Shown here one piece after another: positions 4,538 to 32,634 of a DNA stretch of 64,000 nt. The stretch is taken from assembly GCF_900091625.1 (NCBI RefSeq), contig NZ_FMIC01000002.1, positions 682,001 to 746,000 of the forward strand. The letters are read 5' to 3'. Source of the stretch: Micromonospora peucetia (GTDB lineage Bacteria; Actinomycetota; Actinomycetes; Mycobacteriales; Micromonosporaceae). The position numbers and the translations under genes were made by a program. Position 1 is the first letter of the stretch, and the number at the start of each line of letters is the position of its first letter. The notes below the pieces were generated by a model. It made no database searches. It was not told where the DNA came from and saw only the letters and a program-made list of their open reading frames with translations.

Positions 4538-4925
4538 GGCAGCAGCGCTCCCGGTTCCTCTAGCCCAACCGGCGTACGCCCAGAGGCCGGCTCGCCCCGC
4601 ACCCGGTCCGGCCGATCCCCCGTCGGCCGCGATGCCCGGTCCCGGGCGTCGATCCAACAACCACGACACACTCCCCAGTGATCGACCCGACGGCGGGAAT
4701 GGTCCTCGTCAGCTCGCAGAACCCGTGCCGTCGACGGACGCCGGCAGGGCGCCGAAGCTCACAGAGTCGTTACGCGAAGTAAACGTTTTTGAACAGACTC
4801 CCGGCCACGAATTGCGATGTGTCCTACGGACACCCTCCCCCTTGTGTGTCGACCTTTCCATATAAAAATGACGGTCGTCAAGCCGCTTTGCCTGGCTACC
4901 GCAGCACGAAAGGGTCCTAATCGAT

Positions 4926-5536: not shown

Positions 5537-6316
5537 TCAGCCCGCCCTGGCCAGCGGCCGGGCGCCGTACGTGACGCGGACGACCCCGTCGTCGTGACGC
5601 TCCGTCTCGGCGGTGACGCCGAAGACCCCGGACAGCACCTGGGGCGTGAGCGCGTCCAGCACCGGCCCCACCGCGACGACCTTCCCGCGGTCCAGCACGA
5701 CGAGGCGGTCGCAGCTGCGCACCGCGAGATCCAGGTCGTGCAGCACCGCCAGCGTGGTGACCCCCAGCGTGTGCACCAGTTCCAACAGCTCGAACCGGGC
5801 CCGGATGTCCAGGTGGTTGGTCGGCTCGTCGAGCACCAGGAGCTGCGGCTGCTGGGCGAGCGCCCTGGCGAGCAGCACCCGCTGCTTCTCGCCGCCGGAC
5901 AGCGAACCGTAGATCCGGTCCGCGTGCCCCAACATCCCGGTACGCTCCAACGCGTCGACGACGATGTCGTGGTCCTCGGCGGTCTCCCGGGCGAACACCC
6001 CCTTGTGTGGCGTCCGCCCCAGCGCGGCGACCTCCTGCACGGTCAGCCCCGGCGGCGTGGGGCTGTTCTGCAACACGGCTGCCGTCCGCCGCGCGGCGGC
6101 CCGCGCCGACAGCGACCAGACGTCCTCGTCGCCGAGCAGCACCTGGCCGTCAGTCGGGCGGACCGACCGGTAGATCGTCCGTAGGAGCGTGGACTTGCCG
6201 CTGCCGTTGGGCCCGATCAGGCCGACGACCTCGCCGGACGCGATGTCCAGGTTGACGTCGCGGAGGATCGGCGTACTGCCGATGGAGACGCAGACCCGCT
6301 GCACCTGAAGCTTCAT
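5537..6316 (-). CDS. FecE/FepC-type ABC transporter ATPase
   Basis: The 259-residue ATPase has Walker A GPNGSGKST (35-43), signature LSGGEKQR (about 138-145), Walker B LLVLDEPTNHLD and the switch His in LHDLDLAV. The sequence is of the iron-siderophore/cobalamin importer class. It energises import through the permease encoded just upstream, with which it overlaps by 4 bp (ATGA), so translation is coupled. It is the last gene of the minus-strand operon that carries the ScoE-like oxidase and NRPS, so it likely imports the metal-loaded product of that operon. Metal specificity (Fe or Cu) cannot be read from the ATPase. Confidence 0.9.
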   Translation of the reverse strand: MKLQVQRVCVSIGSTPILRDVNLDIASGEVVGLIGPNGSGKSTLLRTIYRSVRPTDGQVLLGDEDVWSLSARAAARRTAAVLQNSPTPPGLTVQEVAALGRTPHKGVFARETAEDHDIVVDALERTGMLGHADRIYGSLSGGEKQRVLLARALAQQPQLLVLDEPTNHLDIRARFELLELVHTLGVTTLAVLHDLDLAVRSCDRLVVLDRGKVVAVGPVLDALTPQVLSGVFGVTAETERHDDGVVRVTYGARPLARAG

Positions 6317-7413
6317 GAGTGGGACAGGCTCCTATCCCGGCGCATCAGCCAGATGAAGAACGGTGCGCCGAAGAGGGCGGTCAGGATGTTGAGGGGCAGT
6401 TCGTTCGGCGGGTCGACGGTCCGGCACAGCAGGTCGACGACCACGAGATAGAGCGCGCCGACGAGTGCCGCGAGGGGCAGGACCCGTCGGTGGTCCACGC
6501 CGAACGCGAGCCGTACCAGGTGCGGCACCATCAACCCGACGAAACCGATGCCGCCGGCCACGGCGATGAGCACGCCCGCGAGCAGCGCCGTCAGGACGAT
6601 CGACACGATCCGCAGCCGCTTGACGTCGATCCCGAGGGCGGTCGCCGACTCGTCGCCGGTGACGAGCGCGTTGAACTGTCGGGCGTACAGGGTCAGCAGC
6701 ACGGTCACCGCGAGGACGACCACGCCCGCGACCTGGAGTTGCTCCCAGCGGGCGCCCGCGACGCTACCGAGCAGCCAGAACATGATCTGGCGCATGTTGT
6801 TGGGCGTCGTCTGCAACTGGAGCAGGCTCGTGATCGACGTGAACACGTAGCTGATCGCGACCCCCGCGAGCACGAGCCGGACCGGGTTGAGCCGGCCGCG
6901 CTGCTGGCCCAGGCTGAACACCAGCGCCACCGCCAGCATCGCGCCGAGGAACGCCGCGCCCGACACCCCGAGTCCGCCGGCCGCGCCCGCGCCCAGCGCC
7001 ATCACGGTGACGGCGCCGACCGAGCCACCCGCCGACACCCCGAGGATGAAGGGATCGGCGAGCGGGTTGGCCACGAGGGCCTGCAACACGACGCCCGCGA
7101 CCGCGAGCCCGGCGCCGCACAGCGCCGCCAGCAGCACCCGTGGGATCCGGAAGGTCCAGACGATCTGGTCGTGCGCCGGGTCCACCGCCGGGGTCGACCC
7201 GGTCAGGTGTGCCCAGACGATCCGGCCGGTGTCGCCGACGGATACCTGAACCGACCCGACGGCCGCCGCGACGAGGATCATGATGACCAGCAGCAGGCCG
7301 AGCACGAGCAGGCACAGCGGGAGCGGTGCGCCGTGCAGCGGCGCCGGGCGGGCGGTCGTGCGCTTCGCCACGGCCTGCACCCGGCCGTTCGTGGAACGTG
7401 ACAAGGTGGCCAT
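6313..7413 (-). CDS. FecCD-family siderophore ABC permease
   Basis: The 366-residue membrane protein has about nine or ten hydrophobic segments. Family marks include RIPRVLLAALCGAGLAVAG, LQALVANPLADPFILGVS, the GIDV..LR cytoplasmic loop and GGIGFVGLMVPHLVR, which contacts the ATPase. ATG 7413 (MATLSRS) is taken as the start; the open frame runs on upstream through the binding-protein gene without homology. It would form the homodimeric channel of an iron-complex type importer. Only one permease gene is present. It lies 5 bp from the binding-protein gene and overlaps the ATPase gene. Confidence 0.9.
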   Translation of the reverse strand: MATLSRSTNGRVQAVAKRTTARPAPLHGAPLPLCLLVLGLLLVIMILVAAAVGSVQVSVGDTGRIVWAHLTGSTPAVDPAHDQIVWTFRIPRVLLAALCGAGLAVAGVVLQALVANPLADPFILGVSAGGSVGAVTVMALGAGAAGGLGVSGAAFLGAMLAVALVFSLGQQRGRLNPVRLVLAGVAISYVFTSITSLLQLQTTPNNMRQIMFWLLGSVAGARWEQLQVAGVVVLAVTVLLTLYARQFNALVTGDESATALGIDVKRLRIVSIVLTALLAGVLIAVAGGIGFVGLMVPHLVRLAFGVDHRRVLPLAALVGALYLVVVDLLCRTVDPPNELPLNILTALFGAPFFIWLMRRDRSLSHS

Positions 7414-7418
7414 GGCGG

Positions 7419-8447
7419 TCAGAACGCCTCGGGGTGCACGGCCCGCGCGATCTTCTCGACCGCCAGGTGGTTGCTGGGGCCGAGATAGATCGAGTCGGAC
7501 AACACCACGTAGCGGTTGTTCTTGGCCGCGTCCCACTGCGGGAACTGGGCGAGCAGCTTCCGCGCGTCCGCGTCCGGATCCTTCGACATGTAGTTCACGA
7601 CGAGCACGGCGTCCACGTCGGCCTTGGCGACCTGCTCGCGGGAGAGGTTGGCGAACATCTGGTCGGTCGCGCCCGCGAAGGCGTTCACCGCACCCGACCT
7701 GGCCATGATGTCGTTCCAGATCCCGTTGCCACCGACCGAGCTGAACTCCCCGCCCATCGCCATGCCGGGGACGATCAGCATGACCTTCTGCTTCGGCAGG
7801 TTCGCGGTCTTCGCCCCGACGCCGGCGATGTGCGCCCGGGAGTCGGCGATGATCTTCTCGGCGCGCTCGGACACCCCGAAGATGGTGCCGAGGTCGCGCA
7901 GCAGCCCGTAGCTGTCCTCGATGGTCGGCGTGCCGGTCACCGTGCCGACCTCGCCGCACGAGCTCTTCGGCGCGTACGTGTTGGCCCCGACAGCCGCGAG
8001 GTCGTCGCGGGTGGCGAAGCCGGCCTCGGCGCGGAAACCCCCGTCGTACGTGGAGATCACCAGATCCGGCGTCAGCCCGATCATGGCCTCGCGCGGGATG
8101 TCCGCCATGTCGTTGAGTTTGATGTTCCCCGTCGGCAGCTTCCTGAGCGCGTCGACCCGGCCGTCGATCTCCGAGGCGCCGTACGACTGCGCGTTGGCCA
8201 CGACGCGGTCGGCGACACCCAGCTCCAGCAGCGCGGAGGCCTCCGCGACCGAACCGCCGTTCATCACGACCACCCGGCTCGGCGGCCGGTCGTAGGTGTA
8301 CTTCTTGCCGCAGTTGGTGATCGTCACCGGGTAGCCGGCCGTCACCGGCTCGTTCGACAGCTCGGCCTCGCTCCTGACCGTCGTGCAGGCCGTCGAGAGA
8401 AGCAGGGCGGCGACCGCCGCCGCGAGGGGAAAACGCTTGAGTTTCAT
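7419..8447 (-). CDS. FepB/FecB-type substrate-binding lipoprotein
   Basis: The 342-residue protein has a lipoprotein signal (basic start MKLKR, hydrophobic core, lipobox LLSTAC with the lipid Cys near 21). The mature part is a TroA-like binding fold with PSRVVVMNGGSVAEASALLELG at the front and repeated Ala-rich helices. It would capture an extracellular metal complex and deliver it to the adjacent permease and ATPase. Start ATG 8447 overlaps the stop of the MFS gene by 4 bp. It contains many Met residues around PGMAMGGEF, which is compatible with, but not proof of, a copper complex ligand. Confidence 0.9.
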   Translation of the reverse strand: MKLKRFPLAAAVAALLLSTACTTVRSEAELSNEPVTAGYPVTITNCGKKYTYDRPPSRVVVMNGGSVAEASALLELGVADRVVANAQSYGASEIDGRVDALRKLPTGNIKLNDMADIPREAMIGLTPDLVISTYDGGFRAEAGFATRDDLAAVGANTYAPKSSCGEVGTVTGTPTIEDSYGLLRDLGTIFGVSERAEKIIADSRAHIAGVGAKTANLPKQKVMLIVPGMAMGGEFSSVGGNGIWNDIMARSGAVNAFAGATDQMFANLSREQVAKADVDAVLVVNYMSKDPDADARKLLAQFPQWDAAKNNRYVVLSDSIYLGPSNHLAVEKIARAVHPEAF

Positions 8448-9943
8448 CCGGTCCTCCGACTGGTTGACATGGCGACGGGCGTCGGCGCCGCCGCCCCTTC
8501 CGGTTCCGCTGGCGCGGGCACGGTCGCTGCCACGGCCGTTGGCCCGGGCAGGTGGTGCAGACGGACACTGACCAGGCCGGCGCAGGTCGCGGAAGCCGCG
8601 AGCAGGAGCGCGGTGGCCGCGAAGGCCGTCGCGTGGTCGGCGAAGGGCACGCCGGGGTCACCGGGCGTCGCGCCGAGCACGGTGCGGTACCAGACCCCCG
8701 CGACCGCGACCCCGAGCGCGAGGCCGAACTGGGTCACCGTGGTCGCCATGCCGGACGCGGCGCCCGCCTCGGCGGGCCTGACCCGGCCGAGGATCCCGGC
8801 CACCAGGGGCGAGACGACCAGGCCCTGCCCGAAGCCGGCCAGCGTGACCACCGCGACGAGCATGGGTGCCTGGGTGGACTCCGGTGCCTGGACGACCGCC
8901 GCGCTCGCCACCAGAACGGCGGCGAGCAGGCCGCAGCCCCAGACCGGGGTCGGCGACGAGACGAGGCGTCCCACCCGCCGGTTCGCCGCCGAGCCCAGCG
9001 AGAAGCCGATCCCGAGCGGCACGAACATCAGCGCCGCGGTGAGCGGCGTGAACCGCAGCCCGGTCTGTAGGTAGTAGGTGAACACGAGGAAGAGCCCCGA
9101 GTTCGTGGCGAACAGGGCCAGCACGGTCAGCAGGGACAGCCGCATCCCGGGGGCGGTGACGACCCGCGGCGGGAACAACGGATCGCCGCCGTCGCGGTAC
9201 AGGCGCCGCTGCTGGTTCACGAGCACCACGGACACGACGAGCGCGACCGGTACGCCGAGCCACAGCCACGCCGGGCCGCCCGGCCCGAAGACCAGCGGCA
9301 CGAGCAGGGCAGGTGCCGCCACGATGGTGAGCGCCGCGCCCGCGAGGTCGAGCCGGTGCGGCGCCTTCGGCACGGTACGCGGCAGGAGCCCGCCCAACGC
9401 CAGGATCGCGATCCCGACGGGCACGTTGACGAGCAGCGCCGGCCGCCAGCCGAGGCCGGCGATGTCCGCCTCGACGATGAGACCGCCGCCCGCGATGCCG
9501 CTGATCACGCCGAGGCCGATCACGACGCCGTAGACGCTGATGGCTTTCGCCAGCCGGTCCGGGTCCGGCACGGTGGCCCGGATGATCGCGAGCACCTGGG
9601 GGGCCATGAACGCCGCCGTGGCGCCCTGCAGGAACCGGGCCACGATGAGCAGGTCTGCGTCCGCTGCGATGCCGCACAGCAGCGAGGTGAGCGTGAAGCC
9701 CGCAACGCCCCAGAGGAACACCGTGCGGTGCCCGACGCGGTCGCCGAGCCGCGCGCCGGTGACCATCAGGGCCCCGAACGCGATCACGTACGCCGCGCCG
9801 ACGAACTGGATCTGGTCGAAGCCCGCGTCGAGGTCGCGCTGGATGGACGGGCTGGCCACGTTGACGACGAACCCGTCCACCTGGGTCATGAACGTCGCGG
9901 CGAGGAGCGCGCCGAGTCCGAGCCGTTCACGCCGTTTGCTCAT
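8444..9943 (-). CDS. MFS exporter, EmrB/QacA (DHA2) family
   Basis: The 499-residue protein has 12-14 predicted membrane segments. The start [23 protein letters not shown] contains the aspartate of motif D1 typical of DHA2 drug:H+ antiporters, and motif A is [14 protein letters not shown]. It sits between the NRPS gene and the importer genes, with 4 bp overlaps on both sides. The natural reading is that it exports the NRPS product, which is then re-imported with metal by the ABC system. Substrate is inference from context. Confidence 0.85.
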
Positions 9944-12900
9944 ACTGCCCTCCGAAGGTCGCCGACAGGTGGGATCACGGCGCCGACCCGCGCCAGGGGA
10001 CCGGCGGCGAGCATGCCGTCGTGGGTGCAGTCCAGCCGGTGCACGTCGATCCGCCCGTCGACGTGGGACTGCCAGCTCTCCGGCCCGGGCCAGTCCGGTG
10101 TCCTGCCTTCGGTCGCCTCGACGACCAGCACGTCGCCGGTGAGGCGCCGGGGCGTCCAGCCGGCGGCGAGCCGCGAGTTGCGCGCGAAGGCGTCGTACGC
10201 GAGGCGACGCTGTGCCTCGTCGAGGCCGCCCAGCACGGCCTGGCCGAGTACGGCGGCGGCCGCGTCGTGCTCACCGGGCGGTGGCAGGTCCCGCCAGGCG
10301 GCCGGGACCGGGAACGAGTCGAGCAGCACGAGCGGTGCCACCGACTCGCCGGACTCCGCGAGTTGGATGGCCGTCTCGTGGGCCACCAGGCCACCGAAGG
10401 AGGCGCCGAGCAGGTGGTAGGGCCCGACGGGTTGGATCTCGCGGATGCGGCGCACGTGGTCTGCGGCCAGGTCGGCGATGCTCGCGCACTCCCCGGCGGC
10501 GACCGACTGGAGCCCGTACACCGGGCGGTCGGGAAGGGTCGCCAGCAGCGCGGCGAACGACCACGCCAGCCCGGTGGCCGGCGCGACGCAGAACAGCGGC
10601 GGCCCACTCCCCCGCGTACGCAACGGGAGCAGCACCTCCGTCGAGCCACCGCTGGTGTCCGTGGCGAGCGCCGGCGCGAGCTTCGCGACGGTCGGTGCCT
10701 CGAACACCGTCCGGATGCTGATCTCCACGCCGAACTCCGCGCGTACCCGGCCCATCAGCCGGGCGACGAGCAGGGAGTGCCCGCCGAGCGAGAAGAAGTC
10801 GTCGTCGATGCCGACCTCGGGCAGGCCGAGCAGGTCGGCGAAGAGTCCGCACAGGACCGCCTCGCGGTGGTCGCGGGGCGCGCGGCCGTCGACCGTGGCG
10901 GTCAGCTCCGGCGCGGGCAGCGCCGCACGGTCGAGCTTGCCGTTCGTGGTACGCGGGATCGCCTCCAGCGCGACGAACGCGGGCGGCACCATGTAGTCGG
11001 GCAGCCGCTCCGCCACGAACTGCCGCAGCGCGGCGGGTTCCGGCGCGGCGTCGCCGACGGGCACGACGTAGCCGACGAGTCGCACCTGACCCGGCGTGTC
11101 CTCGCGCGGCACCACCGCCGCCTGGGCGACGCCGGGGTGCGCGAGCAGGACCGCCTCGATCTCCCCCGGCTCGATGCGGAAGCCCCGGATCTTGACCTGG
11201 TCGTCCGCGCGGCCGAGGAACTCCAGCGTGCCGTCGCGCCGCCAGCGGGCGAGGTCGCCGGTGCGGTACATCCGGCTGCCCGGGGACCCGAACGGGTCCT
11301 CGACGAACCGCTGCGCGGTCTGCTCCGGCCGGTCGTGGTAGCCACGGGCGACCGGTGCCCCGGCGAAGTACAGCTCGCCCACCGTGCCGGGCGGCACGAG
11401 CCGGCGTGCCGGGTCCAGCACGTACGCCCTGGTGTTGGTGAGCGGCCTGCCCACGATCGGCTCGGCGCTCTCCGCGAGCCGGCACCAGAGGGTGTCGACC
11501 GTGCACTCGGTGGGGCCGTACAGGTTGTAGACGGTCATGCCGGCGTCGCGCAGCGCCGCCCAGAGCGCGGGACCGGTGGCCTCGCCGCCGAGCGCGAGCA
11601 CGGCGGGCCGGCGCCGGTCGTCGTCGAGGAACCCGTTCGCCACCAGTTCCTCGGCGTACGTGGGGGTGATGTCCATGAAGTCGATCTCGTTGCGGGCGAC
11701 GTAGTCGAGCATCGAGGCGGGGTCGCGGCGCCGGTCGTCGTCGACGAAGTGCAGCTCGTGGCCGTCGAGCAGCCACAGCAGGCCCTCCCACGACGTGTCG
11801 AACGACAGCGACGCGGACAGCGCGGCCCGGCACACCCGGCCGCCGGCCGCCGGCCGGATCATCGTGTCGCGGTGGTGGTGGAAGAGGTTGACCAGGCCGC
11901 GGTGCTCGATCACGACGCCCTTCGGCACGCCGGTGGAGCCGGACGTGTAGATGAGGCAGGCCGCGTGCTCCGGCCCGAGGCCGGTGTCCGGCACGGGCGG
12001 GTCGGCCACCGCGGCCAGCTCGGCGGCGGTCGCGGCGGTGTCCACGAGCAGGACCGGGACCTCCACCTGCCGGTGGCCGGCCCAGAGCGCCTCGGTGGTG
12101 AGCACCACGACGGGTGCGCTGTCGGCGAGCATCGCCGCCACCCGCCGGACGGGCAGGTCCGGGTCGACTGGCACGTACGCGGCGCCGGCCCTGAGCACGG
12201 CGAGCAGCGCCACGATCGCCTCCGAGGTGCGGGGCAGCAGGAGCCCCACGTGCCGGTCGGGGCCCGCCCCCCGGGCGACGAGCAGGCTGGCCAGGCGGTC
12301 GACGCGGCGGTCGAGTTCGGCGAAGGTCAGCGTGGCGTCGCCGGCCACCAGCGCCGTACGGTCCGGTGTCGCGGCGGCCTGTGCCGCGAACAGCGCGGGT
12401 ACGGTCACCGCCGGCAGGGGTTTCGCCGTGTCGTTCCACTCCTCCAGCAGCAGCCGGCGCTCGCCGTCCAGGAGCAGGTCGACGTCGGCGACCGGCGTGT
12501 CGGCGGCGCCCGTCGCACGGCTCAGGAAGGCCAGGAACCGGGTCAGGTGACCGGCGAGTTCCTCTTCGTCGTAGCAGTTCGGGTTGGCGTCGAGGACGAC
12601 CCGCAGGCCGCTGCCGTCCGCCCGGTCGTACACGTGCACGACCAGGTCCTCGACGAGCCCGGCGCTGACGTTGTGCACGACGCCGCGAAGCCCGGCGAAG
12701 CGCAGGCCGTAGTCGAACGGCATGATGTTGACCGACGGCCCGAACAGCTTGCGCTCGCTGGCGACCATCCTGAGGTCGCGGCGCAGCTGCTCGTAGCGGT
12801 AGCGCAGGTGTGGACGCGCGGCCCGCAGCTCGGCCGCGACCTGCGCCGCGAGCCCCGCCAGCGTGGCGGTGGGCTCGACGCGGACCCACAGCGGCACGAC

Positions 12901-13770
12901 GTTGGTCACCATGCACGGCACCCGCAGCGACACCGAGCCGAGCCGGGACATGACGGGCAGCGCGAGGGTGAGCTCGTCCGCGCCGGTCATCCGGTGCAGG
13001 TAGGCCGCGAAGGCCGCGATGACGGTCTCGCTCCAGGTGGTTCCGGTGGCCCTGGCGACCGTCTTCAGCGCGTCGATGCCGGCGGCGTCGAGGTCCGCGC
13101 TGGCGCGCAGCACCGTCCGCGCCAGCTTCCCGCTGCGGCGGGCGAGCACCACCGGCGCCGGCCGGCCCTCCGCCCGCGACGTCCAGTGCTCGCGCGCGGC
13201 GGCGTACCTGTCCGAGTCGGCGTAGGCGCGATCCTCGTCGACGACGGCGGAGAGCGATCCGAACGTGCTGGTCGGGGGTTCACGCCCCTCGACGAGCGCG
13301 GTGTACAGCTCGGCCACCCGGCGGGCGACGAGGGACAGCCCGTACCCGTCCAGGGCGATGTGGTGCACGCGCTGGTACCACAGGAGATGGTCCGGGCCGA
13401 GGCGGAGGAACGCCTGCCGGAACAGCAGGTCCTTGCGCAGGTCGACGGGGGTGTCGAGGTCCGCGCGCATCCAGGCCGTCGCGGCGGCGGGCGGATCCGC
13501 CTCGGCGCTGGTGTCGACCAGGTGCAGCGGCCACGACCCGTCGTCGCGGGGGCGCTGCCACGGGCGCCCGTCGGCGTCCTCCTCGAACACGACGTTCAGC
13601 GCCTCGGCCTCGCCGACCGCCCCGCGCACCGCCGCCTCCAGCAGCCGCACGTCGACCGGGCCGCGGATCTCCACGTACTCGGCCGTGTTGAAGGCGGGGC
13701 TGTCCGGGTCGAACTGCTGGCCGGTCCAGATCCCCTCCTGCGCGGCGCCCAACGGCAACGGCTCAGCCAT
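9940..13770 (-). CDS. NRPS, C-A-T-TE (EntF-like architecture)
   Basis: About 1276 residues: condensation domain (1-430, HHIALDGYG), adenylation domain (about 460-960, [40 protein letters not shown]), carrier domain ([16 protein letters not shown]) and a C-terminal thioesterase (GASFGG nucleophile elbow, late CTHDGM). Order and sequence resemble enterobactin synthase EntF. A hand reading of the A-domain pocket against GrsA gives D-T-W-D-A-G-L-V-D-K. The acidic 278 residue suggests a basic or diamino acid such as Lys or Orn, the core amino acids of known isonitrile lipopeptides; this is tentative. Unlike known ScoE-linked synthetases, which as I recall end in a reductase, release here is by TE. 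ATG 13770 is chosen; GTG 13773 is equally possible. Confidence 0.9.
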
Positions 13771-13999
13771 CACTGCCCACCAGCAGCTTCACCCAGTGCT
13801 CGACCGTCGGCCGCTCGGCCAGGTCGACGAAGCTGACCTTGGCGCCGGCGTCGCGCCACCGCTCCATGAGCGTCATCAGCCGCACCGAGTCCAGGCCGCA
13901 GTCGAACAGGTCCTCCGTGTCGAAATTCTCGTCCGGGCGACGGTGGAGCAACTCGGCGACGTCCGCCCTGATCGTCGCCGCCGTCAACTGGTCTGCCAC
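13763..13999 (-). CDS. Free-standing carrier protein (ArCP/ACP-like)
   Basis: The 78-residue protein has the phosphopantetheine site in [20 protein letters not shown]. The DSVRLM form and the following W-R closely resemble the aryl carrier domain of EntB. Start GTG 13999 is set by GAGAGG six bases upstream; a longer frame upstream has no homology. Its stop overlaps the NRPS start by 8 bp. It most likely carries the acyl group that the oxidase converts to an isonitrile, or that the NRPS condensation domain transfers onto its amino acid. No adenylating ligase to load it is found in the operon, so loading may be done by the ketosynthase III or by an enzyme encoded elsewhere. Confidence 0.85.
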
Positions 14000-14092
14000 G
14001 TCATGCCTCTCGATCTCGTGCGAGGTGGACACCGGTGGGATCCGACGGTCGGCGCCGCCGGACCCCACCGCAGATCGAACGTCCGCGCGGGA

Positions 14093-14968
14093 CTAGGCCG
14101 CCGTGTCGACGTCGTCGTAGACGGTGACGCGGTAGGACACGGCCGGCTCCGGCGTCGCGGTGTGCAGCGCCCGGTGGATCAGGCTGCGGTTGTCCCAGAG
14201 GAGCATGTCGCCCTTCTCGAACGTCTGGAGGTGGATGTTCTCGTGCTCGTAGGTGCGGTCGAGCTGGCCGGTGGCCGTGAGCAGTTCCGTCAGCAGCTCC
14301 GACCGGTCGTTGCCGTCCGCGTCCTGTAGCGACAGGGTGAAGCCCTCGCTGACGTACAGCACGGTCTCGTCGGTGTGCGGGTGCGCGAACGCGAGCGGGC
14401 TCGTCACCGGCGGGGTCTTCGCGTTGACCTCGTCGATGATTTCCGAGATCGGCCGGTAGACGTCGGTCGGCCGGATCTTGAAGTACCGCAGCACGCTGTG
14501 CGTCGCCGTGGTGTCCTTGGCGGCCAGCTTCAGCTCCTCGGAGAGCTTCTCGTAGGCCGTCGCCATGTTGATGAAGTACGTGCCACGGTTCTTCGACGGC
14601 ACGACCTGTGGGTAGATCATGGTGATGTCGAACGGACGCGGCATGAACTGGTAGTCCGAGTGCCAGAACTTGCCGGTCTTCGGCACCCCGATCTGGCGGC
14701 CGTCCTCCTCCTTGACGTTGGAGGAGACGAACACCTCCTTCACCTCGGGGTGGTGGTAGACCGGCTCGTAGTACTCCGAGACCCGGCCCAGCCGCTCGCC
14801 GAGCGCCAGGAACTGCCGCGGCGACAGGTCCTGGTTCTTCAAAACGGCGATCTTGTTCGTGTAGATGGCCTTCTTCAGCTCGACGATCTCCTGTGGCGAA
14901 GCGGTTTCGGCGTCGAAACCCTCCACGATCACGCCGAACTTCCGGCCAGCCTGCGGGCTGATTTTCAT
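14093..14968 (-). CDS. Isonitrile-forming Fe(II)/2-oxoglutarate oxidase, ScoE/Rv0097 family
   Basis: The 291-residue protein is a TauD-fold enzyme with iron ligands H103, D105 ([13 protein letters not shown]) and H265 ([11 protein letters not shown]). Blocks [40 protein letters not shown] and TATGQLD match, from memory, M. tuberculosis Rv0097 and Streptomyces ScoE. Those enzymes turn an N-carboxymethyl beta-amino acid into a beta-isocyano acid. The ScoE active-site residues Y96, Y97, R157, K193, H299 and R310 correspond, with an almost constant offset, to Y66, Y67, R128, K164, H269 and R280. ATG 14968 is preferred (GAGGAG five bases upstream) over GTG 14974. It lies between the carrier protein and hydrolase genes. 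Confidence 0.88.
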
Positions 14969-15073
14969 TCGCACTCCTCTGAGCGGTGGTCCCGGAATCC
15001 GGGTACCTCAGTAGTCGCGTCCGGTCGGTCAACAGTTCCCGCCCCGACAGGTGTGCGGGGCCAGATTGCCAGC

Positions 15074-15919
15074 TCAATTACCATGCTGTGGGTTCACATT
15101 TCCGCGGGCTCCTCTGCGATTCTCGGCCTGCCTTTCCCGCAGCACCTGGGTGTGACAGGCGTGGATGACGGCAGCGGCACCGTGCGGGTCGTCGCGCACG
15201 ACGAAATGACCGCTGCCGGGAATGACGAAGTGCTGCGCCCTCGGGAGCACCTGCCGGGCCCGCAACGCGTCGCGCAGCGGGACCACGCGGTCCTGGTCGG
15301 CCCACACGAGGTTCACCGGCGTCGCGTCGTCGACGTTCGCGCGGAACGAGTAGAGCCCCGCGTACCGGCTCAGGGCGGACAGGTCACTGGTGATCATCGA
15401 CGTCACGTCGGCGGCGGCGACCTCCGCCCGGAGGGCGACGGGCCGCGCCGACACGCTGCCCATGACGAACCTGCGGACGATCCCCCTGCCGAGCAGCCGC
15501 CCGCGCGTCTTCGGCCCCACCGCGGCGGTCGCCCGCAGGATCGCGTGGGTCCGCACCACGCAGATCGAGGCGTGGCAGACCGCCCGGAACCCGATGCTGC
15601 ACAGGGCGGTCACCGCCGCGACGGGCACCCGGCGGGCCAGTTCGAGCGCGATCACCCCGCCGAGCGAGTGCCCGACCACGTGCGGCCTGCGCAGTCCCAG
15701 CGCGGCGATCCGCTCCGCCACGTACTCGGCGAGCCTCGGCACGACGTCACGGTCGTACGCGAGCCCCGGCACGCTCCCGTGGCCGGGCAGGTCGATCGCG
15801 ATGGTCCGGGCGAACCCCGGGATGCGTTCGACGACGGCATCCCAGCTCGCCCGGCCGAGACCGGCCGCGTGCAGCAGCAGCAGCTGAGGATCCTCCGCGA
15901 GCCGGCTCGGCTCGGCCAT
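15074..15919 (-). CDS. Alpha/beta hydrolase, possible thioesterase
   Basis: The 281-residue alpha/beta hydrolase has the nucleophile elbow VGHSLGG, an oxyanion segment LLLLHAAGLGRASWD, the acid in WADQDRVVPL and the catalytic His in GSGHFVV. Start ATG 15919 has GGAG eight bases upstream; GTG 15961 has no ribosome site. In characterised isonitrile lipopeptide loci a hot-dog thioesterase (ScoD/FcoT) releases the N-carboxymethyl amino acid. That gene is absent here, and this hydrolase could take the role, but this is inference. It is separated from the oxidase gene by about 105 bp and follows the copper ATPase gene. Confidence 0.7.
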   Translation of the reverse strand: MAEPSRLAEDPQLLLLHAAGLGRASWDAVVERIPGFARTIAIDLPGHGSVPGLAYDRDVVPRLAEYVAERIAALGLRRPHVVGHSLGGVIALELARRVPVAAVTALCSIGFRAVCHASICVVRTHAILRATAAVGPKTRGRLLGRGIVRRFVMGSVSARPVALRAEVAAADVTSMITSDLSALSRYAGLYSFRANVDDATPVNLVWADQDRVVPLRDALRARQVLPRAQHFVIPGSGHFVVRDDPHGAAAVIHACHTQVLRERQAENRRGARGNVNPQHGN

Positions 15920-15970
15920 GGTGCGGCTCCGTTCTTTCGGTACGGAAGTGCGGCTCGGCACGTGGACGCG

Positions 15971-18295
15971 TCAGGAGGCGGTGACCATCGCCTTGCGCGA
16001 CGCCTCGGCCGGCTCCGCCCGGTCCGGGAGTTCGTTGCCCGCGAGCGCCTTGAACCGCCGCAGCCGCAGGCTGTTCGACACCACGAACACCGAACTGCCG
16101 GCCATGATCAGACCCGCCAGCATCGGATTGAGCAGCCCGCTCGCCGCGAGCGGGATGGCCGCGACGTTGTACGCGAAGGCCCAGAACAGGTTGCCCTTGA
16201 TCGTGCCGAGGGTGCGGCGCGACAGCCGGATGGCGTCCGCGACCACCCGCAGGTCGCCGCGTACCACCGTCAGGTCGCCCGACTCGATCGCCACGTCGCT
16301 GCCGGTGCCCATCGCGATGCCCAGGTCGGCCTGCGCGAGCGCGGCGGCGTCGTTGACACCGTCGCCGACCATCGCGACGACCTTGCCGTCGGCCTGGAGC
16401 CGCTTGACCAGATCGACCTTCCCGGCGGGGAGCACGTCGGCGACCACGTCGTCGATCCCCACCTCCGCCGCGATCGCCGCCGCCACCGCGGCGTTGTCGC
16501 CGGTCAGCAGGATCGGGTGCAGCCCCAGCCGGGTGAACTGCGCGACCGCCGCCCGGCTGGTGGGCTTCACCCGGTCGGCCACGACGAGCATCCCCCGCAG
16601 GGCGCCGTCCCACCCGACCATCACCGACGTACGGCCCGCCGCGTCGGCCGTGGCCCTGGCGGCGGTCAACTCCGGGGGCAGTTCGGCCGCCCACGAGCCG
16701 AGCAGCGACGCCCGGCCGACGATGACCTCGTGCCCGTCGACCGTGCCACGCACGCCGACCCCCGTCTCGCTGGCGAAGTCGGCGACCGCGGGCAGTTCGC
16801 CGCACCGCTCCCGTGCGCCGGTGACGACGGCCCGGGCGATGGGGTGCTCCGACGCGCTCTCCAGTGCCCCCGCGAGCCGCAGCAGCTTCTCGTCGCTCTC
16901 CCCGTCGACGGGCACGACCGCCACGACGGACATCTCGCCGGTGGTCACCGTGCCGGTCTTGTCGAGCACGACGGTGTCGACGGACCGGGTGGACTCCAGC
17001 ACCTGCGGGCCCTTGATCAGGATGCCGAGCTGCGCGCCCCGCCCGGTGCCGACCAGCAGTGCGGTCGGCGTCGCCAGTCCCAACGCGCACGGGCAGGCGA
17101 TGATCAGGACGGCCACCGCCGCGGTGAACGCGGCTGCCGCCGGCTGGCCGGAGCCGAGCCAGTAGCCCAGGGTGGCGAGCGACAACGCGATCACCCCCGG
17201 CACGAACACCGCCGACACCTGGTCCGCGAGCCGCTGGACGGCGGCCTTGCCGGTCTGCGCCTCCTCGACCAGCTTGGCCATCTGCGCGAGCTGCGTCTCG
17301 CCGCCCACCCGTGTGGCGCGTACGACGAGCCGCCCGCCGGCGTTCACCGTGGCGCCGACGACCTCGTCCCCAGGCCCCACCTCGACGGGCACGGACTCGC
17401 CGGTCAGCATGCTCGCGTCGACCGCGGAGGAGCCCTCCTCCACGACGCCGTCGGTCGCCAGCTTCTCGCCCGGCCGCACGAGGAACCGGTCGCCGACCGC
17501 GAGCGCCGAGATCGGCACGATCACCTCGGCGCCGTCGCGCAGCACCGTGACGTCCTTGGCGCCCAGCGACAGCAGCGCGCGCAGCGCGGCGCCGGAGCGA
17601 CGCTTCGCCCGTGCCTCGAAGTACCGCCCGCAGAGGATGAAGAGGGTCACGCCGGCGGCGACCTCCAGGTACATGTTGCCCTCGCCGGGCGTGCGCTCCA
17701 GGGTGATCCGGAACGGGTGCCGCATGCCGGGCACCCCGGCGGTGCCGAGGAACAGCGTGTACAGCGACCACGCGAGCGCGGCGAGCGTGCCCACCGAGAC
17801 CAGCGTGTCCATCGAGGCGGCGGCGTGTCGGAGGTTGGCGAAGGCGGCCCGGTGGAACGGCCACGCCCCCCACACCACGACCGGCGCGGTCAGCGTCAGG
17901 CAGGCCCACTGCCAGTACTCGAACTGGAGCTGGGAGAACATCGACATCGCGATGACCGGCACCGCCAACACGGCGACGACCCAGAGGCGGTGCCGGGCCG
18001 CCCGCAGCTCACGGTCGTGCTCGGCCTCCTCCACGGCCGCCGGGTCCGGAGTGCCCGCCGTCGGCGCCGCGGGCGGCAGCACCGGCCGGGCAGTGAAGCC
18101 GATCTCCTCGACGGCGGCGATCACGTCCGCCTGCGAGATCTGGGCGGTGACCAGCACCTTCGCCTTCTCGGTGGCGTAGTTGACGGTCGCCTCCACCCCG
18201 TCGATCCCGTTGAGGCGCTTCTCGATGCGCGCCGCGCAGGCCGCGCACGTCATGCCGCCGATCAGCAGCTCCAGTTGGTTCTCAGCCGTGGCCAT
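15971..18295 (-). CDS. copA: Cu(I)-translocating P-type ATPase (CopA-like)
   Basis: The 774-residue P1B ATPase has one N-terminal metal-binding domain (GMTCAAC), the transmembrane CPC motif ([15 protein letters not shown]), phosphorylation site DKTGTVTTG, hinge [10 protein letters not shown] and the C-terminal helices [15 protein letters not shown] and [14 protein letters not shown]. The CPC, N-P and MxxSS residues define Cu(I) transporters. It exports cytoplasmic copper. Start ATG 18295 follows GGAGGAGGG by six bases. It overlaps the secreted protein gene by 14 bp and is followed by the isonitrile genes. Because isonitriles bind Cu(I) tightly, its presence inside the operon is the main evidence for a copper-related product. 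It may protect the cell or supply copper to secreted proteins. Confidence 0.93.
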
Positions 18296-19304
18296 GGGTG
18301 CCCTCCTCCGTACCGGCGCCGGTGGTGCCGCCGGGGGTGGTGCCGCCCGGGGCGACGCCACCGTTCCTCGCGGCCTCCTCGTTGCGGGCCTTGGCCGCCG
18401 CGAAGGCCTCCTCGGTCAGGCCGTGCGGCGGCGGGTTCGGACCGTTCACGCGCAGGGTGAACGCCGCCGTGCGCACCGTGCCCTGGTGCTGGAAGTCCAG
18501 GAACAGCCGGTAGTCGCCGAAGGTGGGCGCGGTGGCGTGGAAGACGATGTCCGGGCCGGGGGCGGTCTGCCCGTCACCCGGCGTGCCGTCGGGGTGGACG
18601 TGCAGGTACGCCATGTCGCCGTCGCGGAGCGCGACCAGGTGGCCGAAGGCACCCAGGTACGGCTCCAGGTCGGTGACCGGCTTGCCGTCCCTGGCGACGC
18701 TGAGCGTCAGCTTGCCGTCCCTGCCGGGGGTGAGCTCGCCACCGAGGGTCACCGTGTAGCCGTCCACCGACGTGGTGGTCGAGGGCGCGGGCAGCGCCTC
18801 CGGCCGGTAGTCACCCGAGACCGACACGTCCGCCCCGAGCGTCTCGCCGTGGATGCCCCACAGCGGCATGTAGTCGGCGAAGACCCGGTACTCGCCGGCC
18901 GCCGCGAAGGTCAGCGGCACCCGCCACACGCCGTCCGAGCCGAGGTTCGGGTGGACGTGCCGGAAGTTCGTCAGGTCCCGCCGCGCCACGATGAGGTGCA
19001 TCAGCTTCTCGTGCTGCGGCTTGTACTTCACCAGGGGCGTGCCGTCGTGTTGCAGGATCTGGAAGGCGAAGGTCTGTTTCGTCCCGGCCGGGACGTTGTC
19101 CGTGATCACCTTCAGGGTCATGCTCTCGTGGGAGACGGCCAGGCCACCCGGGCCTTCCTCCTCCTCGGCTGCGGCCGGCTTCGCCGCGGGTGCCGCGGGT
19201 GCCGCCGTTGGTGGGGGCCCGACCACGCGGCCTGCGGCGTAGGCGCTCCCGAGCACCAGCACCAGGGCGAGCGCGAACGCGCCGAGTTTCGTCAAGGTCT
19301 TCAT
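18282..19304 (-). CDS. Secreted histidine-containing protein, copper-associated
   Basis: The 340-residue protein has a signal peptide ([23 protein letters not shown]) and a Pro/Ala linker with an EEEE stretch. Two similar Ig-like or DUF-type beta repeats follow, each with an HVHP motif (NFRHVHPN and YLHVHPDG) next to H-L-(I/V) strands. The tail is Gly/Thr-rich and ends HGHG. Proteins of this kind are common beside actinobacterial copper ATPases; a periplasmic or surface copper-handling role is inferred from the paired His motifs and the neighbour. Start ATG 19304 has AGGACGG upstream. It overlaps copA by 14 bp, so the two are co-translated. No enzyme signature was seen. Confidence 0.75.
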
Positions 19305-19374
19305 GAGTAACCGTCCTGTGTCGACACGGTTGGCGTGGAAGCGGACAGGGATCGGGGGGTCGCACCGGGCGGGC

Positions 19375-20397
19375 TCACCGCTCACTCCCGGGCTCCGGGC
19401 CGGGCGCCCGGCCCCACCGCAGCAGGCATCCTCCGAACGACATCCCCCCGCCGAACGCCAGCAGGAGGACGAGATCGCCGTCACGGAGCAGTCCGGCCCG
19501 GTTGGCGTGGTCGAGGGTGAGTGGCACGGAGGCGCTGCCGACGTTCGCGTACTCCTCCACCGTGCGGTGCGTGTGCGCGGCGGTCAGCCCGCACGCGCGC
19601 ACCAGCTCGTCGAGGAGCAGACCGTTGGGCTGGTGCGGCACGACGTGCGCGACGTCTGCCGCACCGACGCCCGCCCTGGCCAGCAGCTTGTCCACGAACG
19701 GCGGGACCTCCTGCAGGACGATCCCGGTGACGCCCCGGCCGTGCATCCGGAAGAAGTGGCCGCCCTCCGCCACGGTCGTCGCCGACGCCGGCAGCCTGCT
19801 GCCGCCCGCCACCACCCGAATCAGGTCGCTGGCGTCTCCCCTGCTGGCCAGCTCGTACCCGACGACACCGCGCCCCGGTGGCACCGCCCCCACGACGGCC
19901 GCTCCCGCGCCGTCGCCGAACAGCACGGCGGTACGCCGGTCGTCGAAGTCCAGGATCCGCGAGTACACGTCGGCGCCGACCACCAGCGCGTGTGCGCCCG
20001 GCCGGTCCGCCACCAGCGCCTGTGCCAGCACCAGGGCGTGCACGAATCCGGCGCACACCGCGTTGACGTCGAAGCACGCGGCCCCGTACGCGCCGAGACG
20101 TTCCTGCACCAGGCAGGCCGTCGGCGGCTGCGGGTGATCCGGGGTCGACGTCGACACGACGAGGTAGTCGACGCGGTCGACGCCGAGGCCGGCGTCCCGC
20201 AGCGCACGGGCCGCGGCCCGTGCCGCGAGGTCGGAGGTGGCGTCCTCCGCCGCCGCGAAACGGCGCGAACGAATGGCGGTCTTGCGCACGATCCATTCCG
20301 GGCTCGCACCCGGTACCCGACGCGCGATTTCCTCGTTCGGCAATGCTCGCGCGGGCACCCAGGATCCGGTACCCAGAATTCCAACGGATGAGGACAC
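19375..20397 (-). CDS. 3-oxoacyl-ACP synthase III (FabH-like)
   Basis: The 340-residue ketosynthase III has the catalytic Cys in DVNAVCAGFVHAL, His in VPHQPNGLL and Asn in YANVGSASVP, with terminal GGGMSFGGCLLRW. All three catalytic residues are intact. Such enzymes condense an acyl-CoA with malonyl-ACP, or transfer acyl groups to carriers. Start GTG 20397 is chosen since GGAGG lies five bases upstream; TTG 20409 is an alternative. It is the first gene of the long minus-strand operon. In this context it could build or load the short acyl chain on the free carrier protein. This differs from known isonitrile pathways, which begin with a fatty acyl-AMP ligase. Confidence 0.85.
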   Translation of the reverse strand: MSSSVGILGTGSWVPARALPNEEIARRVPGASPEWIVRKTAIRSRRFAAAEDATSDLAARAAARALRDAGLGVDRVDYLVVSTSTPDHPQPPTACLVQERLGAYGAACFDVNAVCAGFVHALVLAQALVADRPGAHALVVGADVYSRILDFDDRRTAVLFGDGAGAAVVGAVPPGRGVVGYELASRGDASDLIRVVAGGSRLPASATTVAEGGHFFRMHGRGVTGIVLQEVPPFVDKLLARAGVGAADVAHVVPHQPNGLLLDELVRACGLTAAHTHRTVEEYANVGSASVPLTLDHANRAGLLRDGDLVLLLAFGGGMSFGGCLLRWGRAPGPEPGSER

Positions 20398-20785
20398 AGC
20401 AGCCTCCAAAGAGGAGAGGCATTTCGTGCCTGCAAATTAGCCCAGCCGAACCATCGACCGCAATCACATGAGCCACTCGCCGACGCGACCCGCCGCACAA
20501 ATTACCAAGCGATGGTGGAAACAATTTCGAGGCGATGGAACGCGCAATTTCCGGACCACCGAGGACTCTCCGCCGGCACCTCGGCGCACGGTTCACCCGT
20601 GCAGTTCCTCCCGGCCCGGACATGACAGGCGGGGATGGGATCCGGCGCGTCTCCGCCGCCATGCTGACGGCACGACCGACCGCGCGGCTCGGGCTGCGGT
20701 ACGGCCGGCGACCGCTGGGGCGGGCCGGTGGAAGCCGACGCCGGCGCCTCGTCGGGAACGACCAGGACCGGACGGAGGCCACCTG
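20398..20785. promoter_or_regulatory. 388 bp divergent intergenic region
   Basis: This separates the minus-strand metallophore operon from the plus-strand small ORF/kinase pair, so it should hold both promoters. The part from 20430 to 20560 is less GC-rich than its surroundings (for example CCGCACAAATTACCAAGCG). No clear palindrome or full -10/-35 pair was found by eye, and open frames here have no coding character. Confidence 0.5.
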
Positions 20786-21085
20786 ATGAAAGCGCAGCCC
20801 GTCGGGACGACCCACCCCGCGGCCGAGCCCGGCGGGTGGCAGCCGCCCGACGCGACGGTGCGGACGGATCCAGATCGGCGCAAGCGCACCGTGACGGATA
20901 CCATGCAGTACGTGGCGATCGGAGTCCCGGAGGCGACCATGCCGACCGCGCCGCCGTCCGCGCCGGCACGTCCGGCCACGCCGATCGTGCCGCTGCCGAC
21001 CGGCACGTACCGCGTCCGTCGACAGCCGGGGCGTGGGCCGGTGCCGACCGGCACGCACCGCGTCCGTCGGGAGCCGGGGCGATGA
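20786..21085 (+). CDS. Small 99-residue repeat peptide, unknown
   Basis: I do not recognise this gene. ATG 20786 has GGAGG seven bases upstream (GGAGGCCACCTGATG), and the stop overlaps the ATG of the kinase-like gene (ATGA), so the two are translationally coupled. The C-terminal third repeats itself: PTGTYRVRRQPGR then PTGTHRVRREPGR, separated by GPV. The rest is Pro/Thr/Ala-rich with a short hydrophobic stretch MQYVAIGVPEA. It has no signal peptide, Cys or membrane span. It could be a partner or regulator of the pseudokinase, or a basic peptide with another role. Coding is supported mainly by the ribosome site and coupling. Confidence 0.5.
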   Translation: MKAQPVGTTHPAAEPGGWQPPDATVRTDPDRRKRTVTDTMQYVAIGVPEATMPTAPPSAPARPATPIVPLPTGTYRVRRQPGRGPVPTGTHRVRREPGR

Positions 21086-22275
21086 CGGTCACCGGGACCA
21101 GGCCCGCCGGCCTGACGCGGGACCCCGCCACGCCGGCGCACGCCCTGTCGACCCCGGGCATGCGTCGGGCGAGGTGGTGCGTCCTGGCGGGCGCCGCGAG
21201 CGGAATCGCGACGTGCGTGCTGCTCGCGGCGCTGGAGATGCGCCGCGAACCCGATCCGCGGTGGACCGTGTCCGGCGCGGTCGGGTCACTGGTGCTGGTC
21301 GTGGCGCTGGCCGGGGCCCTGTACCGGTCGGTCATGCCGCGGCTGGCCGCGACGACCGGCCGGTGGCTGCTCGCCGGCTGTGCCGCCGCCGCCGGGCTGT
21401 CCGTGCCGCTGGTCGGGCCGGTCGGCGGCACCCCGGGGCGGAGCTGGGCGTTCCTGGGCGCGGCACTGGTCGGGGCCGCGCCACTGCTGCTGCCGGTCCG
21501 CTACGCGGCGACCCTCATGGCCGCGACGGCCCTGGTGTCCGCGGCGACGGCCTGGTGGTTCGGCGGGCCGGTGGGCGACGCGGTGACCGTCACGGTGGTG
21601 CTCGGGCTGTCGGTGGCGGTGTGGAACGTGCTGCACCTGTGGTTCTGGACGTTCCGCGCACAGGCCGGCGAGGGGCGTGCCGCGCTGGCCCGCCTGGCGG
21701 CGACCGAGGAACGGCTGCGGTGTGCCGGGGACGTGTACGCCCTGCTCGCGAACGAACTGTCGGCGATCGTCCTCAAGGCCGAGCTGGCGTCACGGCTGGC
21801 GCTGGTCGACGGGGAGCGGACCAGGAAGGAGGCCACCGAGATGCGGGTGCTCGCGGCGGCCGCGCTGGCCCGGATGCGCGAGGCCGTGCACGGCTACCGC
21901 AGCGTCGGCCTGCGTGAGCAGACGGACACGGTGGTACGGGTACTGGGGAACTCCGGCGTGCGGTGCACCGTGACGCTGCCGGAGCAGGACCTGCCGCCCG
22001 CGCTCGCCGAGCCACTGGTGTCCGTGCTGCGGGAGGCCGGCACCCACGTGCTGCGGCACGGCGGGGCACGGTGGTGCACCGTCGAGATCGTCCGCGCGGC
22101 GTCCACGGCACGGCTGACGGTGGTCAACGACGGCGCCGGCGACGAAGTTCCGGGCATCGACGGCAGCGGGCTGCCGGGACTCGCCGACCGCCTTCGGGAC
22201 GCGGGCGGCACGCTGCGCACCTGGCGGGAGGGCGACACGTTCACCGTGGAGGCCACCGTCCGCGCGGAGTCGTGA
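21082..22275 (+). CDS. Histidine kinase-like pseudokinase (DesK family, His lost)
   Basis: The 397-residue protein has five or six hydrophobic segments (about 30-200) and a HisKA_3/HATPase-like cytoplasmic part. The dimerisation box reads RLRCAGDVYALLANELSAIV, where kinases have RDLHDLL, so the phospho-acceptor His is Tyr. The N-box is REAGTHVLRHG, with His in place of the ATP/Mg-binding Asn. The G-box DGSGLPGLADRL is kept. Compare the intact kinase at 3266-4537. It is therefore probably catalytically dead and acts as a sensor that modulates another kinase or regulator. No response regulator gene is adjacent. Confidence 0.8.
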   Translation: MTVTGTRPAGLTRDPATPAHALSTPGMRRARWCVLAGAASGIATCVLLAALEMRREPDPRWTVSGAVGSLVLVVALAGALYRSVMPRLAATTGRWLLAGCAAAAGLSVPLVGPVGGTPGRSWAFLGAALVGAAPLLLPVRYAATLMAATALVSAATAWWFGGPVGDAVTVTVVLGLSVAVWNVLHLWFWTFRAQAGEGRAALARLAATEERLRCAGDVYALLANELSAIVLKAELASRLALVDGERTRKEATEMRVLAAAALARMREAVHGYRSVGLREQTDTVVRVLGNSGVRCTVTLPEQDLPPALAEPLVSVLREAGTHVLRHGGARWCTVEIVRAASTARLTVVNDGAGDEVPGIDGSGLPGLADRLRDAGGTLRTWREGDTFTVEATVRAES

Positions 22276-22936: not shown

Positions 22937-22957
22937 GGTGTCCCTCCCCAACGGGAT

Positions 22958-28503: not shown

Positions 28504-28548
28504 GTGGGTCACCTCTGGACACTCCTGAGGCTCGGGTCGACCGGCGAC

Positions 28549-29340: not shown

Positions 29341-29399
29341 CTCGTTCCCCCGCGAATCAGCTCGTGGTCGCCGGTGCCGGTGCCGGTTGGCCGGCTCCG

Positions 29400-29573
29400 T
29401 CAGCGGCCCGCGTCCGCCCGGGCCTCGCTCCAGCTGATGGTGGTGGGCCGGACCGCGGCCAGGTCGCTGGTGGTCCAGCTGTCCAGGACGTCGATTCGGA
29501 CGTCGCCGTCCGTCGGAGCGTCGGCGCCGTCGAAGAAGAAGGCATTGAGAATCTCGGTCGCGTTGACAGACAT
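29400..29573 (-). CDS. 57-residue acidic peptide, unknown; first gene of operon
   Basis: I do not recognise this protein. ATG 29573 has GAGAGG about nine bases upstream, and the frame stays open for 57 codons. The sequence begins MSVNATEILNAFFFDGADAP, is acidic in the middle (TDGDVRIDVLD) and ends with a Ser/Thr/Trp-rich part: SWTTSDLAAVRPTTISWSEA. It has no Cys, signal peptide or membrane span. Gene size, first-gene position and the leader-like then Ser/Thr-rich layout could fit a ribosomal peptide precursor. A YcaO/SagB pair lies 27 kb away at the left edge, but no modifying enzyme is adjacent. It could equally be a small accessory protein of the thioesterase or isonitrile pathway. Confidence 0.6.
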   Translation of the reverse strand: MSVNATEILNAFFFDGADAPTDGDVRIDVLDSWTTSDLAAVRPTTISWSEARADAGR

Positions 29574-32395: not shown

Positions 32396-32634
32396 AGTGC
32401 GCCTCCTACGATGATGAGGGAACGCAAAAAAAGGTAACTGTCGATCGGGAACTGTCGGGTAACAGCCTTCTCGCACCCGCCACGAATTCGACTGGACAAA
32501 GGCGCAGGTCATTGCGTCGGGCCGGCGGACCACCCTATCGTTCTTCCATCACACTTGTCATGGAGCGGCGATCCCGCCCTACTCACCGAATTCCGCAGAA
32601 ACCCAATTGTTCACGCGTGTGCGGAGGCAGAAAC

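Follow-up and report, generated by a model that had tools for sequence, protein, structure and literature searches.

A ScoE-type isonitrile operon in a conserved Micromonospora supercluster that carries both known isonitrile routes

Gene content of the operon

The window analysed here is a stretch of 64,000 nucleotides of the Micromonospora peucetia genome (G000; contig NZ_FMIC01000002.1, positions 682,001 to 746,000), and it contains an operon of eleven minus-strand genes at window positions 5537–20397. Adjacent genes overlap by 4–14 bp or are separated by at most 99 bp. A sequence-only reading had proposed that this run is a copper-linked isonitrile metallophore (chalkophore) operon with a non-standard enzyme set. 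Gene spacing and Pfam searches confirm the run and its domains (the HVHP-motif protein alone lacks a match), and the locus is real. The claim of a non-standard enzyme set fails, and the operon belongs to a larger conserved supercluster in which the genes of both known routes to isonitriles are found. The eleven genes are as follows.

5537..6316, minus strand: FecE-type ABC importer ATPase (PF00005, 119 bits; 80–93% identity in seven relatives)
6313..7422, minus strand: FecCD-type permease (PF01032, 319.5 bits)
7419..8447, minus strand: FecB-type substrate-binding protein (Peripla_BP_2; PF01497, 70 bits), probably a lipoprotein, judged by its N-terminus
8444..9943, minus strand: MFS exporter, DHA2-like (PF07690, 131 bits; TIGR00711, 135 bits, below its cut-off of 230)
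9940..13773, minus strand: nonribosomal peptide synthetase (NRPS) of domain order C-A-T-TE (MxcG is the nearest NCBIfam family, with a score under its cut-off)
13763..14068, minus strand: stand-alone acyl carrier protein (ACP; PF00550, 41.5 bits)
14093..14974, minus strand: ScoE-type (3R)-3-[(carboxymethyl)amino]fatty acid oxygenase/decarboxylase, predicted to form an isonitrile (NF049937, ScoE match, residues, tree)
15074..15919, minus strand: alpha/beta hydrolase (PF12697, 80.5 bits), possibly an editing thioesterase
15971..18295, minus strand: Cu(I) P1B-type ATPase (TIGR01511, 524 bits, cut-off 397)
18282..19304, minus strand: secreted HVHP-motif protein adjoining the Cu-ATPase (no family match)
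19375..20397, minus strand: ketosynthase III (KSIII; PF08541, PF08545)

The order of all eleven genes is the same in a Saccharothrix metagenome-assembled genome (MAG; locus L009, genome G161), which belongs to another family. With this shared order, and with a scoE gene that stays highly similar in its nearest relatives (below), the operon is a conserved unit. Other relatives named below are Micromonospora sp. C31 (L008, G120), A. algeriensis (L010, G162) and Actinophytocola oryzae (L029, G179).

The oxidase belongs to the ScoE family

The oxidase aligns with ScoE (6dch) at 428 bits and with TauD at only 74 bits, and it is 67% identical to ScoE (192 of 286 aligned positions). It scores 464.9 bits against the ScoE equivalog model NF049937, above the cut-off of 400. 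The 2-His-1-Asp iron triad is given in ScoE numbering. At 16 key positions compared, 15 residues are identical (among them Y96, Y97, Y101, H132, D134, R157, K193, R195, D198, R201, E209, H295, H299 and R310), and the exception is R298, which is Leu here. Most of the 16 are named as CABA (substrate)- or alpha-ketoglutarate-binding in PMC7949033; position 158 is Gly both in the oxidase and in the printed ScoE chain, whereas that paper names Asn158.

In a tree of 40 rows, with one TauD from the same genome and the PvcB of the window as a long-branched outgroup, the oxidase falls in a clade of eight with support of 100/97 (the window, G083, G103, L008, G031, L009, L010 and L029; ‘group A’). The scoE gene is 81–93% identical across its seven nearest relatives. 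Bit scores, the NF049937 cut-off and the tree thus rule out an ordinary TauD dioxygenase, and the assignment to the ScoE/Rv0097 type, which the sequence-only reading had left to be decided by this grouping, stands. The isonitrile chemistry of the operon and its link to copper are well supported: the families of its proteins, the active-site residues and the conserved gene order all speak for them. The further claim, that the locus deviates from known ones by absent ScoC and ScoD, does not survive.

ScoD- and ScoC-type genes beyond the window

The operon had been described as having no acyl-AMP ligase or hot-dog thioesterase, with a KSIII and an alpha/beta hydrolase in their place. The only match to an FcoT thioesterase domain (ScoD type) in the genome is at G000:C2:678912-679361 (PF10862, 192 bits, cut-off 27), and both supposedly missing genes lie 2.5–4.7 kb to the left of where the window begins, approximately 17 kb from scoE. 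The apparent gap is therefore an artefact of where the window ends.

G000:C2:641382-677256, minus strand: four polyketide synthase (PKS) genes, after the acyl ligase
G000:C2:677262-678830, minus strand: ScoC-type acyl ligase, next to the FcoT gene
G000:C2:678867-679460, minus strand: FcoT/ScoD-type gene (PF10862), outside the window, which begins at 682001
G000:C2:679495-680523, minus strand: SARP regulator adjoining the FcoT gene

The acyl ligase is 59–63% identical to ligases that adjoin scoE in loci L011–L018. In these loci the KSIII also occurs together with ScoC and ScoD; with both enzymes at the window edge here, a replacement of ScoC and ScoD by the KSIII and hydrolase is ruled out.

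The distribution of the two families points the same way. A ScoE query matches 43 of 160 genomes of the genus at E 1e-3, of which only seven reach at least 430 bits (the next is at 110 bits). FcoT occurs in seven of the 160, the same seven, two of which carry extra short fragments (hypergeometric 2e-12, a value that ignores relatedness). One of them, G156, has a compact form in which FcoT directly adjoins ScoE (KSIII 38%, FecE 47%). Among 29 named ScoE loci, fetched with flanks of up to 10 kb and several shorter, FcoT lies within the flanks of 24; a fifth remaining locus (L028, a 5.5-kb contig) was left out, and the other four (L008, L009, L010 and L029) have FcoT elsewhere in the genome. The distance from scoE is 17–18 kb in L008, L009 and L010, and in L029 FcoT is on a separate contig.

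Importer, copper genes and acyl supply

An importer (substrate-binding protein plus permease or ATPase) accompanies scoE in 19 of these 29 loci, a Cu-ATPase in 10 and a KSIII in 10; the HVHP protein (4 of 29), the alpha/beta hydrolase (3 of 29) and PvcA (0 of 29) are rarer. This recurrence marks the importer and KSIII as recurrent partners of ScoE, and the KSIII as no substitute for ScoC or ScoD. The KSIII retains Cys, His and Asn, as read off alignments.

The Cu(I) ATPase falls below the cut-off of the Escherichia coli CopA equivalog (515 versus 1316 bits). The HVHP protein has no match in Pfam, NCBIfam or PDB sequences (PDB up to E=10), and its homologues occur in 152 of the 160 genus genomes. 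Neighbouring paralogues of the Cu-ATPase (72% identity, with one in-frame TGA reported) and the HVHP protein (53%) lie at 1.511–1.515 Mb in the same genome. By this comparison, the operon pair is a duplicated second copy of a predicted genus-wide copper-handling pair. According to PMC9600254, copper starvation induces homologous clusters, which are linked to resistance to it, and PMC9147137 places CtpB in copper-poor growth.

A candidate partner of the KSIII is also present in the window:

32512..33498, plus strand: 3-hydroxyacyl-CoA dehydrogenase (PF02737, PF00725)

In A. oryzae, genes for SARP, ScoD, ScoC, a thioesterase, a second SARP, KSIII and 3-hydroxyacyl-CoA dehydrogenase are grouped together, and the KSIII and dehydrogenase open reading frames (ORFs) overlap by 4 bp. 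This arrangement, with the same dehydrogenase in the window, suggests that KSIII and the dehydrogenase supply ScoD. Both ScoD and ScoC are kept in A. algeriensis and in A. oryzae; neither genome has a PvcA match, and no PKS match was found in the stretches fetched (60 kb in A. algeriensis, 40 kb around the A. oryzae set). ScoD and ScoC therefore need not serve a PKS, and in A. algeriensis ScoC, ScoD and ScoE need neither PKS nor PvcA.

The synthetase

The C-A-T-TE order of the NRPS holds as first described, and a thioesterase-ended synthetase is not unique to this locus. Among six synthetases examined, those of the window, L009, L010 and L018 end in a thioesterase and those of L011 and L014 in a reductase. 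We read the adenylation-domain signatures by script, with PheA numbering. The window, L009, L010, L011 and L014 share the first eight places (in three of them the ninth is unaligned), so that the signature of the window resembles that of the two reductase-ended relatives. L018 differs at two places by script, yet by eye its motif ALGGEA is the same. The acidic residues of the signature would be compatible with a basic substrate side chain, for example that of lysine.

A second isonitrile route in the same window

A PvcA-type cassette, unmentioned in the sequence-only reading, represents the second known isonitrile route, 10 kb from scoE. The cassette (PvcA, PvcB and UbiA) and its neighbours are listed here.

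20728..22275, plus strand: histidine kinase homologue (HisKA_3, 30 bits)
22352..22951, minus strand: type I isopentenyl-diphosphate isomerase (IDI) homologue with a changed Cys motif (NF002995, 203 bits, cut-off 127)
22958..23923, minus strand: UbiA-family prenyltransferase (PF01040, 40.3 bits, cut-off 34.2)
23970..24776, minus strand: PvcB/IsnB-type Fe/2OG oxygenase (169 bits to 7tcl, 151 to PvcB 3eat)
24773..25759, minus strand: PvcA-type isonitrile synthase (PF05141, 263 bits, cut-off 26.4; 250 bits to PvcA 3e59)
25756..28512, minus strand: LAL-type LuxR regulator (PF13191, PF00196)
28549..29664, minus strand: type II thioesterase (PF00975, 184 bits)

PvcA scores 252.8 bits against NF045653, the L-tyrosine-specific equivalog, below its cut-off of 600. 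In PvcB, alignment by hand places Ala and Gly at the product-class positions K107 and N188, with Lys or Arg one place further. PMC9467999 gives K107 and N188 as the PvcB-type residues that separate vinyl isonitrile from isocyanoacrylate formation; the enzyme of the window thus carries neither published class signature. The IDI homologue has the motif SCYGHP, with TCHGHP in G161 and SCCGHP in G134. The catalytic Cys of the E. coli enzyme sits in SVCGHP, and the homologue here may be inactive or altered in function. The neighbouring kinase homologue has Tyr in place of the HisKA_3 motif His, as in G031; G161 retains the His.

PvcA occurs in nine of the 160 genus genomes, once as a fragment, and in four of the seven with ScoE (G000, G083, G103 and G134; not in G120, G031 or G156). 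The overlap, four shared of seven and eight, gives a hypergeometric value of 9e-5, which ignores that three of the genomes are close kin. PvcA is 10 kb from scoE in G000, G083 and G103, and 47 kb from it in G134, where it adjoins ScoC–ScoD. The Saccharothrix MAG has LAL–PvcA–PvcB–UbiA–UbiA–IDI in the same place, with PvcA 13 kb from scoE; its two tandem UbiA genes (L109 17166-19111) are 52% and 81% identical to that of the window. In G120 and G031 the PvcA–PvcB–UbiA cassette (22958–25759) is missing between LAL and IDI genes that are both kept, and parsimony therefore favours its loss there.

The linkage is no general rule. With L028 excluded, the named loci number 28 and are spread over 27 genomes. 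Seven of these genomes match PvcA, one by fragments only; in G163 it lies megabases from scoE, and the other matches are outside the 10-kb flanks. Across a sample of 397 genomes of the order, ScoE was found in 19 (E 1e-60) and PvcA in 14 (E 1e-40), and both only in G000 and G288, in which they are 1.1 Mb apart. In searches of open-licence literature, no title or abstract start described a cluster with PvcA plus ScoE.

Wider cluster

Further genes lie to the left of the operon.

19..1122, plus strand: YcaO (SagD-family) azoline-forming enzyme (TIGR03604, 261 bits, cut-off 219)
1165..2634, plus strand: SagB-type peptide dehydrogenase (TIGR03605, 149 bits, cut-off 78)
2765..3370, plus strand: NarL-type response regulator, by eye (97% identity over 201 amino acids in G103, G031, G083 and G120)
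3266..4669, minus strand: histidine kinase (HisKA_3, 56.6 bits)

YcaO, SagB and a leader-binding protein are present in all eight group A genomes, and the three gaps searched for a precursor of a ribosomally synthesized and post-translationally modified peptide hold no convincing conserved small ORF. An ORF at 2578–3285 on the minus strand was ruled out as a response regulator, as it is the opposite strand of the regulator gene at 2765–3370. The G161 contig is bounded by a PKS 53% identical to PKS4 and, at its opposite end, by a PKS 75% identical to PKS1; the whole set lies in between. This favours a single cluster, although unrelated type I PKSs can reach 53%. One or more additional products probably come from the PvcA/PvcB/UbiA, type I PKS and YcaO/SagB genes.

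Several other genes are worth recording. In the gap at 4670–5536, a minus-strand fragment (5006–5227) resembles by eye the end of an ECF sigma factor, whose counterpart in A. oryzae is longer (L029 5297-5872). A free-standing A-T-reductase NRPS without a condensation domain lies at 39091–42153 and is 92% identical in G031 and G120. To the left of the window (L055 7432-12254), an NRPS gene in two overlapping frames stands beside a TauD-family gene, and G134 has relatives of both at 63–65%. Near the isonitrile cluster of A. algeriensis, the protein of L010 132-806 resembles by eye DJ-1/PfpI-type isonitrile hydratases.

Proposed pathway and alternatives

We favour, with a probability of roughly 0.6, a chalkophore-type isonitrile-peptide pathway that is split over two operons inside a dual-route isonitrile supercluster. 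What the sequences show is gene content, family membership and conservation; every reaction, the product, copper binding and import are inferred. The operon would cover carrier, oxidase, assembly, transport and copper functions, and the other half (SARP regulator, ScoD-type enoyl-ACP glycyltransferase and ScoC-type ligase) would be encoded approximately 17 kb away, past the left edge of the window. KSIII and the 3-hydroxyacyl dehydrogenase would provide a 3-hydroxyacyl and then, presumably through a dehydratase, an enoyl thioester, to which the FcoT/ScoD enzyme would add glycine before hydrolysis. The ScoE enzyme would oxidize the N-carboxymethyl group to the isonitrile, and ScoC would return the resulting acid to the ACP. 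The NRPS may then acylate a diamino acid, probably lysine, with release by its thioesterase. The MFS protein would export the product, the FecBCD importer would return the copper complex, and the Cu(I) ATPase and HVHP protein would handle the copper.

Several observations weigh against this pathway. The FcoT protein reaches 210 bits against the ScoD model NF049938 (cut-off 250) and the ligase 270 bits against the FadD10 equivalog (cut-off 726), and in M. peucetia ScoD–ScoC sit in a PKS operon. The synthetase has a thioesterase instead of the terminal reductase expected of a diisonitrile chalkophore synthetase. A Cu-ATPase and HVHP protein of a genus-wide kind may mean protection and not acquisition. 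Finally, 100 kb of G134 holds ScoC, ScoD, ScoE, PvcA and PKS genes together, with only distant matches (27–37%) to the NRPS, FecE and KSIII of the window and none to its substrate-binding protein, FecCD or Cu-ATPase; ScoE may therefore serve a polyketide. The ScoE gene of G134 was considered as a pseudogene and rejected, because the reported TGA is its natural stop.

The strongest rival, which we consider unlikely but worth keeping in view, is that ScoD, ScoE and ScoC supply the type I PKS with an isonitrile acyl starter, giving an isonitrile polyketide or a polyketide–peptide hybrid released by the C-A-T-TE synthetase, with copper genes that protect the producer or load the product. ScoD, ScoC and PKS1 are contiguous, with gaps of 5–36 bp; all four PKS proteins begin with a PF08990 docking domain, no loading module was seen in them, and by eye the last domain of PKS4 is an ACP, with no thioesterase. 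The G134 set, lacking close relatives of the NRPS, importer and Cu-ATPase, also fits. However, ScoC, ScoD, ScoE and the importer are all present in A. algeriensis and A. oryzae, where the fetched stretches show no PKS, and the adenylation signature resembles the one found in compact, uncharacterised ScoE clusters. Still less probable, in our judgement, is that both routes act on one prenylated polyketide–peptide, PvcA/PvcB and ScoD/ScoE each adding an isonitrile to yield a mixed di-isonitrile copper ligand; if true, this would be the first case known to us of the two routes cooperating.

It is very doubtful that the role of the FcoT enzyme is to provide a cremimycin-like macrolactam with its beta-amino-acid starter, as CmiS1 does, with the ScoE operon a mere neighbour. 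In the PDB, the FcoT protein scores highest against 5wsy/5wsx (SAV606; 164 bits), ahead of Rv0098 (98 bits). CmiS1/SAV606-type thioesterases yield N-carboxymethyl-3-amino fatty acids for macrolactam PKSs, according to PMC11284099. Against this, FcoT and ScoE co-occur in seven of seven genomes, and no FAD glycine-oxidase (CmiS2) family appeared among the proteins scanned, which did not include every gene. A siderophore operon for iron or another metal that happens to include a ScoE homologue is the most improbable reading: FecBCD importers usually serve siderophores and the NRPS resembles MxcG and EntF below cut-offs, but the eleven genes include no catecholate or hydroxamate enzyme and do include a Cu-ATPase.

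Comparison with known systems

Like the sco/sfa and nrp-type diisonitrile lipopeptide clusters, the locus has a ScoE equivalog, a putative FcoT-type glycyltransferase, an acyl ligase, an ACP and a C-A-T synthetase, with copper genes near. In contrast to them, it is divided into two gene groups approximately 17 kb apart, a thioesterase replaces the reductase, the KSIII, hydrolase, FecBCD importer and Cu-ATPase share the scoE operon, and PvcA, PKS and YcaO genes surround it. The KSIII–ScoE–ScoD–ScoC–ACP–NRPS clusters of Kutzneria, Actinokineospora and relatives (L011–L018) share KSIII, ScoE, ACP and NRPS in eight of eight cases, the importer in five of eight (L011–L015) and, where read, a similar adenylation signature; they differ in being compact and in having no Cu-ATPase in the fetched flanks, with L011 and L014 reductase-ended and L018 thioesterase-ended.

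The pvc/isn clusters (paerucumarin, rhabduscin and hapalindole type) likewise pair PvcA with a PvcB-type oxygenase, whereas here UbiA and IDI homologues adjoin, PvcB has the Ala/Gly residues and PvcA is below the tyrosine-specific cut-off. The available text of PMC7358434 describes an azole-peptide (LAP-type) cluster of Rhodococcus erythropolis/qingshengii in which 11% of genes are SF2768-like, and places neither PvcA nor PKS there; it is a precedent for YcaO/SagB and isonitrile genes as neighbours.

Implications

The locus offers a candidate importer for isonitrile chalkophores; in the parts of PMC12140626 that deal with import, uptake and transporters, no chalkophore importer is named. It also offers a candidate KSIII-plus-dehydrogenase source for the acyl chain. 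It is a natural cluster in which the two known isonitrile-forming chemistries are neighbours, which makes it possible to test in a soil genus whether they act jointly or separately.

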